This document shows, in pieces, positions 7,491 through 31,843 of a DNA stretch of 32,272 nucleotides. The notes under the pieces are model-generated. The model ran no database searches, was not told the origin of the DNA, and saw nothing but the letters and a program-made list of their open reading frames with translations. Position numbers and translations under genes: made by a program. Origin of the DNA: Acidobacteriota bacterium (GTDB lineage Bacteria; Acidobacteriota; Terriglobia; Terriglobales; Acidobacteriaceae); assembly GCA_003224815.1 (NCBI GenBank), contig QHZW01000089.1:918-33189 (forward strand), read 5' to 3'. Numbering within the stretch: the stretch's first letter is position 1; each line of letters opens with the position of its first letter.

Positions 7491-8144
7491 TTATCGTGCT
7501 GCTGTTGCTGTCTGCGCCCGCCATTCTTTGAAATCGGCGCTCTTCTTCAGATGCTCGGGGAAATCGTGCTCATACGGCCCCAAGCGAGGGCAGACCAGCT
7601 TATGGAAGCCGAACTTTTCCATCTCCGTGCGCGCCTCTTCCGGCGTCCATCTCTCCACCGCTATGCGATACGCCGCGATCATCATCCCCGTTCGGTCGTC
7701 GCCATAGCGACAATGCACGAAAAGTTTTTTGCTTTTGTTTTCCTCGAGCACAGAGAGGAACTTCGCCACATGCTTATCTTTCGGAAACATGCAATGCCAT
7801 GGGATCGCGACATATTGCATTCCCGCTTTGTTGACGTATTTCTTTTCCGTGTCCTTGCCGCTCAGGCGCAGATCGATCACAACATCGATCCCCATCTTCT
7901 TCAGGTTGGTGTATCCCGTGCCCTTCGGCTGTCCCCCGCGATAAAGATGTGAATTCACTTCACCGAAATTCGAAACCCCGATCACGGTGAGCCGTCGCGC
8001 AGGACGCTCAGTAGCAGACGTGTCCGGCTTCTTCGGGGATTGCTCAGCGGGACTGCCAACGCACCCTGCCAGCAGCACGATCAGAAGAGAGATAAGACGG
8101 GAGGTCGGCCCACAGATCGGACGAAAAAGACAACGCGCAGGCAT
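7491..8144 (-). CDS. tyrosine/dual-specificity phosphatase family lipoprotein
   Basis: Lipobox LLAGC; LYRGGQPKGTGYTNLKKMGIDVVIDLR; active-site-like HCRYGDDRTG (CX5R). Confidence 0.87.
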   Translation of the reverse strand: MPARCLFRPICGPTSRLISLLIVLLAGCVGSPAEQSPKKPDTSATERPARRLTVIGVSNFGEVNSHLYRGGQPKGTGYTNLKKMGIDVVIDLRLSGKDTEKKYVNKAGMQYVAIPWHCMFPKDKHVAKFLSVLEENKSKKLFVHCRYGDDRTGMMIAAYRIAVERWTPEEARTEMEKFGFHKLVCPRLGPYEHDFPEHLKKSADFKEWRAQTATAAR

Positions 8145-8228: not shown

Positions 8229-9338
8229 CTATTGCCCGCTGCTCGTCGCCAACTGTTTTTCTTGAGGAGTCATCTGCCGCCAGAGGACTTGCAAATCGGC
8301 GGATATTCGCGAATTCTGTGGCTCCTGATGCAGTGCCCGCGCAAACCAACGATACGCGGTCGGCAGGTCTCGTCCTACGCAATGCCCCGTCGCATACATG
8401 GTGCCGAGAACGGTTTGCGCCTTTGAATTTCCGTGCGTCGCGGCCGTCCTCAACGACGACTCGGCCCGCTGGCAATTCTGCGGTAGCCCATTCCCGTATA
8501 GATATCGTTCGCCCGCCAGCTCCAAATCCGCATCCGGAGAAGCCGCCGCCGCAGGTGTGGTTGCACCAGCTACCGGTGCCTTCGCCTTCGGCGCAGGTGT
8601 CTTCGGGGCAGGCGTCTTTGTGCGGGTCTTTCCACTCGCAGCCCCGGCCGCAGCCTCAGCCGGAGGCGTTGCCTTCGCTTCCTCGGTCTCCTCCGTCGTC
8701 TTCTCTTCTGAAGTCGCACCGGCGGCTCCTGCTCCCGCAGCCGCCTTGCCTTCTTCGCCCTTTGCAGCCGGCGGCGTCTGTCCGCCCTGTGCCTGGGACT
8801 CCGCTGGTTTGCCTGTCTCCGGAGGCTTCGCATTCTGGTCCGGCGCAGTCGGCAGGACGTCACCCGCCCCAGTCATCGGCTTCTGAGCATTCGTCTGCGG
8901 TTCCTGTGACGGTGCCGGTGCTACTTCCGACGGAGACGCCGTTTGCGCCGGCTTGTTCTCCAAATTGAGCCTATTGAACGGGTACCCGTTGTGCTTCCAC
9001 TGCCAGTATCCGAACCCGCCTATGCCGATCAACAGAATCAATCCGAACACCACCCCCGCATAACTGCGCGGCGGCTCATCCTCATACAGGTAGTGAAATT
9101 CCGTCTTCGGATCTTGCGCCAATCCCAGGAACGACGGCCCGTGCACAGTTTCTGTGCCGTTTCCATTCCCCGCAGGCGCAATGCCGCCAGCGCTTTCAGT
9201 CCTCAAGGGTTCTTTGGTTGCAGCGGCTATCGCAGCCGGAGGGTGCGCAAGCGAAGCTCCGCACATCCCGCAGAATCGGTACTCCGGGCTATTGTCATAT
9301 CCGCAATGGGTGCAGCGGACGTACACGGATTCAAGCAT
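8229..9338 (-). CDS. zinc-ribbon membrane protein with Ala/Pro/Glu-rich linker and C-terminal Sel1/TPR-like repeats
   Basis: CTHCGYDNSPEYRFCGMCG zinc ribbon; single TM VVFGLILLIGIGGFGYW; low-complexity linker; GERYLYGNGLPQNCQRAESSLRTAATHGNSKAQTVLGTMYATGHCVGRDLPTAYRWFARAL. Confidence 0.85.
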   Translation of the reverse strand: MLESVYVRCTHCGYDNSPEYRFCGMCGASLAHPPAAIAAATKEPLRTESAGGIAPAGNGNGTETVHGPSFLGLAQDPKTEFHYLYEDEPPRSYAGVVFGLILLIGIGGFGYWQWKHNGYPFNRLNLENKPAQTASPSEVAPAPSQEPQTNAQKPMTGAGDVLPTAPDQNAKPPETGKPAESQAQGGQTPPAAKGEEGKAAAGAGAAGATSEEKTTEETEEAKATPPAEAAAGAASGKTRTKTPAPKTPAPKAKAPVAGATTPAAAASPDADLELAGERYLYGNGLPQNCQRAESSLRTAATHGNSKAQTVLGTMYATGHCVGRDLPTAYRWFARALHQEPQNSRISADLQVLWRQMTPQEKQLATSSGQ

Positions 9339-9551
9339 ATCTCAATATTTGGATGGCAGAAAGGCTGCTGCTGTTGGCCTAAGCTGAAGGGGCGTGGCTC
9401 CCGGTTGGTCTCTGTCCCAGCCTAGAACTGTGAGACATACTTGTGGAGCTCTGCTCCGGCCTCAGAACCGCGATAGGGGCGACCTTTCGGCGCATTTTGG
9501 CGTACCGTCACCCCAGGTGTTGTGATATATACCACATACGAGGTACTTACC

Positions 9552-9716
9552 TTGCAAGGCGAAAACTCCGAACGCTGGCAGGCGCTCTGCGCACAGGCGG
9601 CAGTCGAGCAAGACCCACAGAAACTCATGGAACTCGTCACGGAAATAGCCCGTCTGCTGGACGAGAAGGCGCAACCCTTATCGGAGCGGCAGACGAAGGT
9701 GCAGAAGGCAGGCTAG
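9552..9716 (+). CDS. small helical protein, family copy A
   Basis: TTG start after GAGGTACT; QGENSERWQALCAQAAVEQDPQKLMELVTEIARLLDEKAQPLSERQTKVQKAG; paralogous to 9783-9950 and 10834-11025. Confidence 0.7.
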   Translation: MQGENSERWQALCAQAAVEQDPQKLMELVTEIARLLDEKAQPLSERQTKVQKAG

Positions 9717-9782
9717 TTGTTCGGCGTTCCCTGCATTCCGTGCGATGCCAACGACCGTGCCGTCTCGGCGCAAGTTCAATTT

Positions 9783-9950
9783 CTAAGCTGCGCCTTTAGC
9801 TTGCGATTCTTCGCGTGCTGCCAGGCACTTCTCTTTTTCTTCAAGCAAGCGATCGATCTCACGGATCAATTCCATCAGCTTTCTTGGGTCTTGCTCCACC
9901 GCAGCCTGCTCGCAAAGCTTGCGCCAGCGTTCACCAGTTTCGCCCCTCAT
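9783..9950 (-). CDS. small helical protein, family copy B (below supplied ORF cutoff)
   Basis: Translated by hand: MRGETGERWRKLCEQAAVEQDPRKLMELIREIDRLLEEKEKCLAAREESQAKGAA*; GAGGTACT upstream as in copy A. Confidence 0.75.
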   Translation of the reverse strand: MRGETGERWRKLCEQAAVEQDPRKLMELIREIDRLLEEKEKCLAAREESQAKGAA

Positions 9951-10025
9951 GCCCCGAGTACCTCAAACAGAGATATACCACAGGTTCGCTGCTGCTTTCA
10001 TTTCTTATTAACCGATGCGAGGCAT

Positions 10026-10054
10026 TAAAAAACCCGCTGGTTCTGGCCAGCGGG
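10026..10054 (-). terminator. Rho-independent terminator
   Basis: CCCGCTGG-ttctgg-CCAGCGGG perfect stem; reading on the minus strand it is followed by TTTTTT, just downstream of the 10082-10273 minus ORF. Confidence 0.8.
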
Positions 10055-10081
10055 GCATGTAAGGAGGTGAGCTAGCTTGGG

Positions 10082-10273
10082 CTAGTCGGCTAGATCTGGA
10101 TCTGCTTGAAGAGCTACGAACAGCTTTTCGATGTGAGGATGAAGATTTGTCCGAGTGATGTGCTGCTGCTCCCTTAGGAATGCGCGCAATTCCTCAGCGG
10201 CACGCTCGACAGCATCGCGATCACACGCATCCCGAACGGCGACGCAAAGTTGCTTCAGTCGAGATTCGTCCAT
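10082..10273 (-). CDS. small helical protein, divergent copy C
   Basis: MDESRLKQLCVAVRDACDRDAVERAAEELRAFLREQQHITRTNLHPHIEKLFVALQADPDLAD; LC..A....D...V...A.EL...L pattern; terminator follows. Confidence 0.55.
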   Translation of the reverse strand: MDESRLKQLCVAVRDACDRDAVERAAEELRAFLREQQHITRTNLHPHIEKLFVALQADPDLAD

Positions 10274-10833
10274 ATCGCCATTTATCATGCCTGAATGGCG
10301 GCCGTTGTTCGATACAGTACATCCTGTAGGTATGTAGGTTAGGAACTCTGGCTTTCTAAGTGGGTGTTTCTGTCGCTGAAAATAGCTGTGACCCGATATG
10401 TCTTCGCCTCACTTCGTGAAGCGAAGCCTGTCCTGAGCGAGGTCTGATTTGGACGACTCAGCGGTTCCAGCAACTCGCCGTCTTTCGTGCTGTTTTCTAG
10501 CTCTGGCATTTGATGGCGCTTTATTCCCCAATCCCACGTCCACTATTTGCAAACATCCTCGCGACCGAGTCCGCTCCCGTTGCCTCACTTGGCCCAGTGC
10601 TATCGAACGCCGCCGGGAGGGTGCTTTTCTATGGACAAACAGTATTCCCGATTTGAAATGGGGGCTCGGCCGCCGTTACGAAATCAGAACAATTGCTTGA
10701 TCGGACGAGAGAAGAAGGGTTCGTCACCGACCAGACCGGCTCCATCTCCTCGCAAACGACCCGTGCAAGCACATCGCGAACTCACACTGTGATTGTCAAG
10801 TCGTTTACGTCTTGTCACGAAAATGGAACAACG

Positions 10834-11025
10834 CTATCCCGCTTTGGAAAGGTCCTCACCGCCAGCCAGGTCTGCACTCTTACGATCTGAAGGCTGCTCC
10901 AGATGCTGTTCTTTTCCATCCAGCTCGCGACTGATCTCGTTTACCAACTTCAGCAGCTTATCGTGGTCCTGCTCAACCGCAGCCTGCTCGCATAACTGAA
11001 CCCAGTGCTCTTGATGGTCTTTCAT
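10834..11025 (-). CDS. small helical protein, family copy D
   Basis: MKDHQEHWVQLCEQAAVEQDHDKLLKLVNEISRELDGKEQHLEQ..; LCEQAAVEQD identical to copy B. Confidence 0.75.
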   Translation of the reverse strand: MKDHQEHWVQLCEQAAVEQDHDKLLKLVNEISRELDGKEQHLEQPSDRKSADLAGGEDLSKAG

Positions 11026-11049
11026 AAAAACCTCGTACTTGGAGCAAAT

Positions 11050-11202
11050 TCAAATCCGGTCAACTGTCTTAAGACTCGAATCCGAAGGCACTTCGACCGT
11101 TGCTGTTGCGGGCCGTTTCTCTGCAATTTTCAGTTCTTCCTTGGCGAGCTCCCTCACGACTTTTTCTAATGGAATCTGTTCGAAATGTGTTTTCGTCTTC
11201 AT
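11050..11202 (-). CDS. small hypothetical protein (below ORF cutoff)
   Basis: MKTKTHFEQIPLEKVVRELAKEELKIAEKRPATATVEVPSDSSLKTVDRI*, translated by hand; same strand as and downstream-to-upstream neighbour of copy D. Confidence 0.5.
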   Translation of the reverse strand: MKTKTHFEQIPLEKVVRELAKEELKIAEKRPATATVEVPSDSSLKTVDRI

Positions 11203-11363
11203 AAAGACTTGTACTCCTACGATTCCAACCCTAGCAGTCTGGAACTAATACGGGTCACCTCTTTTAAAAATCGCGCCTTTCTTTAGCCTGGTAAATTGCT
11301 GATTTACGTGGTTATCACGTTGCAAAGAGAGGTTTGAACAGCTGTCGCTTGACATGCGCTGTG

Positions 11364-11396
11364 GTTAGCGTTACGTTAGCGTACCGTTAGTTATAT
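11364..11396 (+). promoter_or_regulatory. three tandem 11-bp direct repeats upstream of 11422 CDS
   Basis: GTTAGCGTTAC GTTAGCGTACC GTTAGTTATAT at 11364, 11375 and 11386; TTGACA at 11349-11354 just upstream. Confidence 0.6.
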
Positions 11397-11421
11397 GATT
11401 GAATTACGTTAGGAGGGTTCT

Positions 11422-11700
11422 ATGGCGACGCAGGCAAAAAAAGTGTCCATGAACTTCAGCACCATGTCGCAGGTGGATGTACCGCAAGGGCGAAATGGAA
11501 AACACAAAGACATCGTGACCAAAATTCTTTCAGATCTCGATCAACTCCAGAAAGGTATCGCTCTCAAAATTCCACTGGCAGAACTGGCGGACGGCAAAGA
11601 AAACGTAAGATCAGCTTTGAATCGCGCAACCCGGAAGAGTGGTCGTCGCGTAGCAACCGCAACCGATGCTACGTTTTTGTATGTGTGGAACGAAGGCTGA
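11422..11700 (+). CDS. small basic hypothetical protein, possibly DNA-binding
   Basis: AGGAGG RBS; MATQAKKVSMNFSTMSQVDVPQGRNGKHKDIVTKILSDLDQLQKGIALKIPLAELADGKENVRSALNRATRKSGRRVATATDATFLYVWNEG. Confidence 0.8.
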   Translation: MATQAKKVSMNFSTMSQVDVPQGRNGKHKDIVTKILSDLDQLQKGIALKIPLAELADGKENVRSALNRATRKSGRRVATATDATFLYVWNEG

Positions 11701-11846
11701 GATATTCCTTCTGGCCGACAGGCCGCCACGGAGAAAACAAGTTTCCAGGAAGTCATCCACGCGAATTCCCACCGCGCACGCCTGCTTTCAAGGCGAACAC
11801 GCCGGTTAGCTTGGCATCGGAGGGCGTTCGGTATTTGGGAACGGAA

Positions 11847-12095
11847 TCACGCAACCTTGCGTGCGGAAGAGATGCCGGCTACAGAGTCCAATGTCGAAAT
11901 GGTGCTTGCCTGCCCGCCCAACGAATCTTTCGCCAGACAGATGTGCTCGTGAAGAGCTGATCGAAGTTCTGGGAGGATACGCTCTAGATCAGCTTCTGTC
12001 CTGGCGGCCACTGCCTCTCGACACAGTTGCTGTATGCGTGCTTCGGTATGCTGGGGCACCTTTGTACGGTATCGGACGAACAAGCCCTTTGACAT
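11847..12095 (-). CDS. small helical protein, divergent copy E
   Basis: EARIQQLCREAVAARTEADLERILPELRSALHEHI matches the LC..A....D.......EL...L spacing of the small-protein family. Confidence 0.5.
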   Translation of the reverse strand: MSKGLFVRYRTKVPQHTEARIQQLCREAVAARTEADLERILPELRSALHEHICLAKDSLGGQASTISTLDSVAGISSARKVA

Positions 12096-12138
12096 ACACG
12101 AAGCTCTGTATCTTTAAAACGGCTATTCCCGAAGGAAA

Positions 12139-12252
12139 CTAATGCTTCAATAGCATGTACGCAAGTCCAAGCACGGAAAGCCCAATCATTGCCAGAAAAA
12201 GAAGATCCAGCCAAATTCCTGGCCGGCCGTGCGTATTGGCATTGTGCGTCAT
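12139..12252 (-). CDS. 37-aa single-TM small protein (below ORF cutoff)
   Basis: MTHNANTHGRPGIWLDLLFLAMIGLSVLGLAYMLLKH*, translated by hand; clear TM helix. Confidence 0.55.
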   Translation of the reverse strand: MTHNANTHGRPGIWLDLLFLAMIGLSVLGLAYMLLKH

Positions 12253-12277
12253 TTCGAATTCACGTCGGCCTGGGAAC

Positions 12278-12460
12278 TTAGGTATTGCCATTCCACCTCT
12301 TGCTAGAGGACGAAAGCTTTGCAGAAGGCGTCACTGGGTACCCATTCTTGAGCTGCTCTTGGGCTGCACGCAGGTCCTTGCAGTATTCACAATTTGGGTC
12401 GGAGCAATAAGGCGAATCGGCTTCCGCCTCACGCGGGGACGGAGTGGCTTGAGACGACAT
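12278..12460 (-). CDS. small Cys-containing hypothetical protein
   Basis: MSSQATPSPREAEADSPYCSDPNCEYCKDLRAAQEQLKNGYPVTPSAK..; CSDPNCEYC (Cx4CxxC) motif. Confidence 0.6.
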   Translation of the reverse strand: MSSQATPSPREAEADSPYCSDPNCEYCKDLRAAQEQLKNGYPVTPSAKLSSSSKRWNGNT

Positions 12461-12726
12461 TGTATTTTCCCTTGCGAAGGATTAAAGAGCCGGGACACCG
12501 ACGCTCTTTGGGGAGGGTGAAAACGGAGTCCCGGCACTTGTCAACGAGAGCCATTAAAGGCTCATTCCTTTGTTCACGGAAGCGCCAACTAACGTCATCG
12601 CCTTGCGAACGACTGAAACGGCGCGGGGCAGGGCTTCCGTTCGATATCGAATCGAGAAAAACGGTTGAACGTAGATTCTGGTTTGCTAGTTTTCTGCTCA
12701 CGTCTGCGTCGCAGGGAGGAAAATTA

Positions 12727-12928
12727 TGGCAACTCAGCCATTGAAGAATAACGAGCCGGGGCAAGGCCAACCCGTAGACTTAGCCATGCCGACGATGCCA
12801 CCTGGCGCATTCTGGCGAAAGGAGCCGCCGAAGAGGAAGATCCCGAAAAACTCCTGCAGATCGTCAAAACCCTGAGTCTCGCCCCTGAAGAAAAGAAGAA
12901 GAGGAAGCCAAGAAGAAATCCGCATAGC
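12727..12928 (+). pseudogene. frameshifted member (copy F) of the small helical protein family
   Basis: ATG frame MATQPLKNNEPGQGQPVDLA; then a second frame DDATWRILAKGAAEEEDPEKLLQIVKTLSLAPEEKKK; then a third frame EEAKKKSA*. The second frame has no start codon after its upstream TAA. Confidence 0.55.
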
Positions 12929-13121: not shown

Positions 13122-13865
13122 TTACGCCTTCACCTCATCGCGCTCCACCACGCCATCCTTGATGTAAATAACGCGATGCGCGTATTCAGCGATGTCGTGC
13201 TCGTGGGTGACCAGCACAATGGTGTTGCCTTCGGAGTGAAGCCGGTCGAACAGTGCCATGATCTCATTTCCCGTCTGTGAATCGAGATTGCCCGTCGGTT
13301 CGTCGGCGAGAATGATCGAAGGCTTATTGACCAGAGCGCGCGCGATCGCAACTCGCTGCCGCTGTCCGCCGGAGAGTTCGTTGGGCTTATGACTCATGCG
13401 CGATTCCATGCCCACGGCTTGCAGCGCTTCCTGCGCGCGCTCACCACGTTCATGCGCCGGTATCCCGGCATAAATGAGCGGCAGTTCCACGTTGTGCAAT
13501 GCGGTCGCACGCGCCAAAAGATTGAACGTCTGGAAAACGAACCCAATTTCTTTGTTTCGTATGTGCGCCAGTTGATCGTCGTCAAGTTCGCTGACCAACT
13601 GCGCATTCAGCCAGTACTGCCCCCGGCTCGGAGAGTCCAGGCAGCCGATCAGGTTCATCAGCGTCGATTTTCCCGACCCGCTTGGTCCCATAATCGCCGC
13701 ATATTCATTCCGCCGAATCGAGAGATTCACGCCCCGCAGCGCATGCACCTGCTGCTCGGAACCCATGTCGTAGGTCTTCCACAGGTCGGAGGTGTGAATC
13801 ATCGCCGACTCTGGTGGGGCCGACACGTGGGGTTGCGAGATATTGATTACTTCGGCAGTCGCCAT
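13122..13865 (-). CDS. ABC transporter ATP-binding protein (LolD/MacB type)
   Basis: GPSGSGKST Walker [16 protein letters not shown] signature, [12 protein letters not shown] Walker [14 protein letters not shown]; no permease adjacent in the window. Confidence 0.93.
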
Positions 13866-14189
13866 GCTTTTCTCCTGCTCCGGACGGGGCAACCGGGTCA
13901 CTCCTGTCCCTGGTTACATTGGACGGGCCACGTGGGCATTAGTCACTCGTGAATTCTGGCCGCTGCATCGAGCAACGCACGCTTACCTTCCACTAGGGGT
14001 ACGATGCGGTTCGGTGAAAAGTTCCAGTCCAGAAAGGGGAGTTTCGGGACTGCACTCCGAATTATATCCGCCTCACTGTTAATTTGGATGCATGGAATTA
14101 CAGACACTCGGTAAACCGGTAAGGTTCCCTTAGTGGGCAACCGGTCAAGAAGTCAACCCAACCCCATCGACTGCGCTCACAGCAGGCTG

Positions 14190-30772: not shown

Positions 30773-31843
30773 ATGAGTGGCGACATCAAGTATATCGGCA
30801 TGGACGTGCACAAGGAAGCGATTGTGATCGCCGTCCTCAATGGCAGTGGCAAGTTGGTAATGGAGTCCATCGTCGAAACCAAAACCAGCAGCATTCTGCA
30901 GTTTGTGCACGGACTCCGGGGCGAGTTGCATGTGACGTGGGAAGAAGGGACCTGGGCAGCCTGGCTGCACGATCTGCTGCAGCCGCACGTGCACCAAGTT
31001 CTGGTCTGCAATCCACGCCGCAATGCCTTATTAAAGGAAGGCAGCAAGAACGACAAGGTGGACGCACGCAAGCTCGCTGACCTGTTGCGCACCGGCATGC
31101 TGCGACCGGTCTACCACGGAGAACATGGGCTGCGGACGCTGCGCGAGTTGGGGCGCAGTTACCAGACCATCAGCCAAGATCTGAACCGGGTGATGAATCG
31201 ACTCAAGGCTCTCTATCGCGGTTGGGGCATACCCTGTGCGGGCACCCAGGTGTATGCCTTGCACTCTCGAGAGGAATGGTTAAACAAGATCCCGCACGCG
31301 GGCGTGCGTCGGCGCGCCGAGCTGCTCTATGAACAGTTGGATGGGTTGCAGGGCTTGCGGCGAAACCTGCGGCCCGAGTTGTTGGCGGAGAGCCGGAAAC
31401 ATAAGGCCGCGAAACTGCTGCGACAGATTCCCTGCATCGGTCCGATTCGAGCCGCGCGCTTGCTCGCGCTGATGCAGACCCCGCATCGGTTCCGTAGCAA
31501 GCGACAACTGTGGACCTATAGTGGGCTGGGCATCGAGACGCACGATAGTGCGCAGTACCGTTACGTGCGTGGACAACTGCAACGTTCGAAAAAACCGCAG
31601 CAGATTCGTGGTCTGAATCGGAATCACAACCACGCGATGAAAGAGATCTTCAAAGGAGCCGCCACCCGAGCCAGTTGTGGGGTGGGGCCCTTGCGCAATT
31701 TCTATGTCGCCTTGCTGGCCAAGGGGATGAAGCCAGAGATGGCGCGTCTGACGTTGGCGCGCAAGATGGCGGCCATTACTTTGACACTTTGGAAGAAGGA
31801 GGAACGCTTCGACGCAGAACAACTGAAAGCGCAAGCAGCTTGA
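30773..31843 (+). CDS. IS110 family transposase
   Basis: IGMDVHKEAIVIAV, TWEEGTWAAWL, KNDKVDARKLADLLRTG (DEDD-like N-domain); IPCIGPIRAARLLALM..FRSKRQLWTYSGLGIETHDSAQYR..RGLNRNHNHAMKEIFKGAA (transposase_20-like C-domain). Confidence 0.95.
   Translation: MSGDIKYIGMDVHKEAIVIAVLNGSGKLVMESIVETKTSSILQFVHGLRGELHVTWEEGTWAAWLHDLLQPHVHQVLVCNPRRNALLKEGSKNDKVDARKLADLLRTGMLRPVYHGEHGLRTLRELGRSYQTISQDLNRVMNRLKALYRGWGIPCAGTQVYALHSREEWLNKIPHAGVRRRAELLYEQLDGLQGLRRNLRPELLAESRKHKAAKLLRQIPCIGPIRAARLLALMQTPHRFRSKRQLWTYSGLGIETHDSAQYRYVRGQLQRSKKPQQIRGLNRNHNHAMKEIFKGAATRASCGVGPLRNFYVALLAKGMKPEMARLTLARKMAAITLTLWKKEERFDAEQLKAQAA

Follow-up and report, generated by a model that had tools for sequence, protein, structure and literature searches.

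The window considered here, a 32,272-nucleotide stretch of a subdivision 1 acidobacterial genome (4.55 Mb, in 508 contigs), contains a 3.4-kb island of small genes (the region of coordinates 9522-12928), which lies between a gene for a zinc-ribbon/repeat protein on one flank and a gene for an ABC-transporter ATPase on the other (Table 1). The public close relatives of the window are subdivision-1 (gp1) Acidobacteriota MAGs, assigned where named to Acidobacteriales or Terriglobia; all support described below is comparative, and the genomes compared are mostly MAGs. An Rfam search of the island returned no match. Further along, at 30773-31843, lies an ORF that resembles an IS110-type transposase (by eye only).

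A sequence-only reading had described the island as repeated copies of a single protein of about 55 amino acids: three clear (9552+, 9783- and 10834-), two divergent (10082- and 11847-) and one frameshifted (12727+). The three clear copies, here termed FamA, do have 21 invariant positions in common, and the first two are 62% identical over 47 amino acids (E=5e-17). The ‘divergent’ pair is related to FamA at the profile level only (hhalign P 68%, E 5e-5) and is better treated as a separate sister family, FamC, which has homologues of its own in other genomes. The frameshifted copy was also correctly perceived, in that a FamA-like domain lies in a different frame from the ATG at 12726; it belongs, however, to a W..LA subfamily, and either pseudogene formation or an error of assembly may account for it.

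The start of the first copy is best placed at the TTG at 9552, since the GTG at 9522 agrees less well with the homologues. The element that had been seen in common before the first two starts, GAGGTACT, is present at both, at 9540-9547 on the plus strand and immediately upstream of 9950 on the minus strand; complete or partial versions of it also precede further FamA copies. Its interpretation as a special operator was set aside: it is mainly a Shine-Dalgarno core in copies of common descent.

Table 1. Coordinates of the genes and sequence elements of the island and its flanks
Feature	Position	Strand	Remarks
Zinc-ribbon/repeat protein gene	8229-9338	-	Flank of island; recognised by eye
FamA copy 1	9552..9716	+	Two-helix hairpin protein; TTG start after GAGGTACT
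FamA copy 2	9783..9950	-	55 aa; AlphaFold2 model with helices 4-18 and 22-53
FamC copy	10082..10288	-	Remote FamA sister family (LC...ELR.xL.E)
FamA copy 3	10834..11025	-	63 aa; directly downstream of FamF in E/F/A cassette
FamF	11050..11202	-	50 aa; segment KTHFEQIPLE; upstream of or fused to partner modules in relatives
F leader	11248..11264	-	Conserved AAAGAGGTGACCCGTAT, then CTGCTA downstream
GTTAG repeats	11364..11390	+	Three, 11-bp spacing, in FamE promoter; probable operator; further CGTTAG at about 11408
FamE	11422..11700	+	92 aa; probable DNA-binding autoregulator, divergent from FamF
Second FamC copy	11847..12095	-	
FamD	12139..12291	-	Small predicted membrane protein (GIWLDLLFLAMIGLSVLGLAYMLLK); start probably internal ATG 12252
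FamB	12278..12460	-	Small cysteine-motif protein (YCSDPNCEYC)
FamA-like copy	12791..12925	+	W..LA subfamily; remnant or frameshift
ABC-transporter ATPase gene	13122-13901	-	Other flank of island

The neighbouring very short ORFs to which the same reading had drawn attention (11050-, 12139- and 12278-) are real families, as is 11422+, each with homologues elsewhere. Several of the companions recur near FamA. Three of seven FamC matches (E<1e-6, outside the host genome) have a FamA copy less than 600 bp away, for which the rough chance expectation is about 1% each, and three of nine other FamB matches lie within about 1 kb of one. FamB, with a conserved CxDPNCxxC motif, is found beside FamA copies in the window and at four further loci (L153, L005, L073 and L079), the first of which has the gene order F-A-B. 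A FamD relative directly follows a FamA copy at another locus (L004); the in-frame FamA-FamD ORF seen there might be a domain fusion or, just as well, a pair of adjoining genes that share a frame, and was not counted as evidence.

Spread, selection and fold of FamA

A genome-wide search places FamA at about 14 sites in the host genome (E<=0.01), so that the repetition reaches far beyond the window, and homologues were recovered from other genomes at 3-12 copies per genome across the genus. In the wider phylum three of 396 genomes gave matches at E<=1e-4, all of them members of the window's own taxonomic family, while a looser model added relatives from other genera of that family and, as single copies, from a second family of the class. 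FamA is a lineage-restricted family, belonging almost entirely to one acidobacterial lineage. One relative (L090:3313-3474) is carried on an IMG/VR contig classed as viral; a phage origin of the family was considered, and this one contig is too little support for it.

Comparison of the paralogues indicates that third codon positions differ most (0.63, versus 0.41 and 0.30), and dN/dS values are 0.02-0.10 for the more diverged pairs: 0.07 (dN 0.068, dS 1.0) for a pair encoded downstream of leuS (L072/L077) and 0.02 for another (L075/L078). Very recent duplicates are looser (0.31-0.56). By comparative standards the FamA copies are selected proteins, and the description of a selected, uncharacterised small protein is sustained by this purifying selection. 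Searches of Pfam, NCBIfam, PHROG, PADLOC and PDB sequences gave nothing above threshold. Two outcomes that would have refuted the sequence-only reading, a lack of homologues elsewhere and a lack of purifying selection, did not occur. The leuS-linked copy occurs in three MAGs (L068, L072 and L077, around 8001), adjoining leuS in two of them, and the position is orthologous.

The AlphaFold2 model of copy 2 is a confident two-helix hairpin (pLDDT 87.5), as had been anticipated, and a fold search against the PDB found no significant structural relative. No histidine is conserved among 35 members, and FamA is therefore not a phosphotransfer domain; the hairpin model, this lack of a conserved histidine and the lack of any Pfam match likewise do not identify it as a response regulator or two-component protein. 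Among genes seen beside FamA copies elsewhere are a Crp-type regulator gene (L084:8162-8911), which abuts a FamA copy with zero gap, and a dual-specificity-type phosphatase gene, which is found near FamA both in the window (7491-8144) and at a second locus (L074:3847-4485, 65 bp from FamA), perhaps by chance. Long frames antisense to FamA in the neighbour lists were discarded as shadows of the real gene.

The E/F cassette and its exchangeable modules

The FamA copy at 10834- stands third in a conserved cassette of divergent genes (E <- -> F-A), and its placement in such a cassette, with exchangeable modules, is what is new here. Of 398 genomes of the taxonomic family, 123 carry FamE (33 of 79 genera). 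FamF, recognisable by the motif KTHFEQ(I/V)P, directly precedes FamA on its strand in the window and at four other places (G000:C21, G003:C309, G007:C14 and G004:C1); in a further genome (G618) the two are fused. The literature searched contained no paper with the F motif and no description of the E/F system.

Thirty-two E loci were compared (the 29 best new matches of the E search, plus L127, L134 and L121), so that the following counts are indicative, with a bias to E proteins closely related to that of the window: behind F lies a FamA-type hairpin in 15, a receiver in seven, a zinc ribbon in four, another hairpin in two and nothing recognised in four. At the FamA-type loci F is immediately upstream of the hairpin in eight cases, fused to it in six and separated from it by 200 bp in one. 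Several genera show both arrangements, adjacency and fusion, and the FamA subfamilies involved differ; the hairpin found in the fusions is a FamA homologue (hhalign P 96.7%, E 4e-10). If ten FamA copies per 5-Mb genome are assumed, the probability of finding 15 of 32 beside E/F is about 3e-31, a figure whose exact value means little (the loci are related to one another, and the choice of three among them was not blind); chance is nevertheless excluded as the source of the linkage.

The other occupants of this position are of several kinds. The receiver occurs as six fusions in six genomes, the one scanned (L167) matching Pfam PF00072 above the cut-off (E 1.1e-20, 74 bits), and as one separate receiver-like gene that overlaps F in another family of the phylum (L121; 25.7 bits, just below the cut-off of 30.2). 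The zinc-ribbon-like modules are cysteine-rich and fused. A second hairpin family (W..L..AA..E.D...L..RI..A..AI..R; L158, L173, L015 and L083), for which Pfam gave no match, is fused to FamF in two genomes. With FamA, a receiver, a zinc ribbon or another hairpin all found behind F, FamA is one among a number of modules that can take each other's place in a small switch, which is probably autoregulated.

The evidence for autoregulation lies in the E promoters, which carry ACGTTA/ACGATA repeats (GTTAG in the window) one helical turn apart. Upstream of E there are 54 exact pentamer repeats at a lag of 11, where 3.1 would be expected and none of 200 mononucleotide shuffles gave more than 12; further peaks fall at lags of 5, 16, 21-22 and 27, and many of these regions have a CTTGAC hexamer resembling a -35 element. 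The model of FamE (beta-alpha-beta-alpha-beta-beta) is moderately confident (pLDDT 73), and the nearest solved folds include Alba, R3H, SepF and ArsR-type proteins, none of them significant (best PDB hits Alba, R3H and SepF, at E>=0.039). Phage and plasmid records gave no match to it. On the strength of repeats and model, FamE is probably a small nucleic-acid-binding autoregulator.

The intergenic region between E and F contains a second conserved element, the F leader (AAAAGA..T.ACCCGTA-N-CTGCTA, with variations), at 31 of the 32 E loci; at L134 the leader anchor landed early, and the element is visible further along. When nine genomes were scanned for it, all seven exact matches fell at E/F loci, and one-mismatch matches elsewhere were at background level. 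Rfam gave no match for the leader, which could serve as a promoter recognised by a special sigma factor, as a binding site or operator, or as an RNA element.

A candidate regulatory switch and its alternatives

The associations described above suggest, at close to an even chance, that FamA is a small protein-binding adaptor hairpin that acts in gene regulation, within a switch composed of E, F and a partner module. In this scheme E (11422+) would bind the 11-bp-phased repeats of its own promoter and thereby repress or tune itself; F (11050-), read from its dedicated leader, would supply the constant docking segment KTHFEQIP; and the gene or domain behind F would be a swappable partner (the FamA hairpin in the window; a phospho-receiver, zinc ribbon or other hairpin in relatives) that binds a partner or senses a state. 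F and its partner might then carry a signal to or from E, or to or from a shared target, with FamA serving as a partner-binding hairpin independent of phosphorylation. The remaining FamA and FamC copies would be stand-alone adaptors that arose by duplication and whose partners have diverged. What the comparisons establish are the families, their selection, the gene order, the fusions and the repeats; that E binds DNA, F docks and FamA binds a partner is inferred from association. The more far-reaching form of this proposal is a reasonable possibility that falls somewhat short of an even chance: that the E/F-X cassette is a modular switch of Acidobacteriota (an autoregulated DNA-binding protein, a constant docking segment and interchangeable partners) in which FamA replaces a phospho-receiver, and that the many free FamA and FamC copies would form a lineage-specific adaptor network derived from it.

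The alternative that best survives, although it is unlikely, is that the role of FamA has nothing to do with the cassette (for example in protein stability or stress response), and that a single early capture at E/F, inherited by descent, mimics a functional linkage. Most FamA copies do lie away from E/F, and the single-gene neighbours of those other copies are very diverse. A single capture is harder to reconcile with the occurrence of both fusion and adjacency in several genera, involving different FamA subfamilies, or with the filling of FamA's place behind F by other modules.

It is decidedly improbable that the cassettes are toxin-antitoxin-like or selfish modules, with E as an autorepressor and antitoxin, F or its partner as the toxin, and the island as a pile-up of addiction genes. 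Small genes, apparent autoregulation through repeats, patchy presence and many paralogues would all fit such an account; the supposed toxin slot, however, holds unrelated modules such as receiver domains and zinc ribbons, E and F diverge instead of forming a single operon, E is absent from the plasmid and phage records searched, and PADLOC gave no match while Pfam and NCBIfam gave none above cut-off. Of the two example roles offered by the sequence-only reading, the toxin/antidote thus finds little support, whereas the regulatory adaptor gains from the hairpin model, the linkage to an apparently autoregulated gene and the receiver as an alternative partner.

Still less probable is an immunity role, in which the FamA copies would be maintained in arrays as orphan immunity proteins belonging to a contact-dependent or polymorphic toxin system. 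Small paralogues in multi-copy arrays recall such systems, and seven of 35 FamA members give weak, sub-threshold CdiI_2 matches (best E 0.043), but these matches (CdiI, PF18593) fall far below the Pfam gathering cut-off, no toxin gene was noticed beside FamA copies, and different genomes retain a copy downstream of leuS, with a dN/dS of 0.07; the E/F linkage and the receiver exchange would also be left unexplained. Exchange with receivers and zinc ribbons, the lack of library matches and the stable leuS copy together weaken both this and the toxin-antitoxin account. Finally, that the ORFs are spurious reading-frame artefacts of a GC-rich intergenic region is scarcely credible, for although they are short, have no match in the protein-family libraries and include one frameshifted copy, they display a codon-position signal and low dN/dS, have homologues in dozens of genomes, and in most cases are preceded by Shine-Dalgarno sites.

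On the adaptor-switch reading, a set of tiny hypothetical ORFs from a phylum abundant in soil becomes a system that can be tested: it has a candidate regulator and a candidate operator, a constant segment, and partner domains that can be swapped. The receiver version is carried by well-assembled genomes of the window's own taxonomic family, the best of them in fewer than ten contigs. Should some of these belong to cultured strains, function could be studied there first and the results then extended to the hairpin versions. The reading would also help to explain the clustering of so many small proteins in this acidobacterial lineage.

Comparison with known systems

Autoregulated plasmid repressors of the CopG, ParG and omega type act on phased repeats, and FamE resembles them as a small protein with short direct repeats, in helical phase, in its own promoter. 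It differs from them in its predicted fold, which is Alba-like or winged-helix-like (with low confidence) rather than ribbon-helix-helix, and in having no plasmid or phage match.

For FamA, the functional precedent is provided by the DUF1127 small proteins (YjiS), a family to which it does not itself belong; three of them in Agrobacterium bind the sensor kinase PhoR (PMC12501420). Both are families of paralogous proteins of about 50 amino acids within one genome, with protein-protein interactions in regulation (for FamA, as a working model). FamA, however, is almost confined to one acidobacterial lineage and belongs to the E/F cassette, and no DUF1127 match appeared when its 35 members were compared with all of Pfam at E<=0.1.

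A second comparison is with single-domain response regulators (PF00072). FamA is all-helical and has no conserved phospho-acceptor, and is therefore not itself a receiver; in relatives, however, a genuine receiver takes its place, behind F and divergent from E, so that the likeness is one of position, in which FamA is the substitute.
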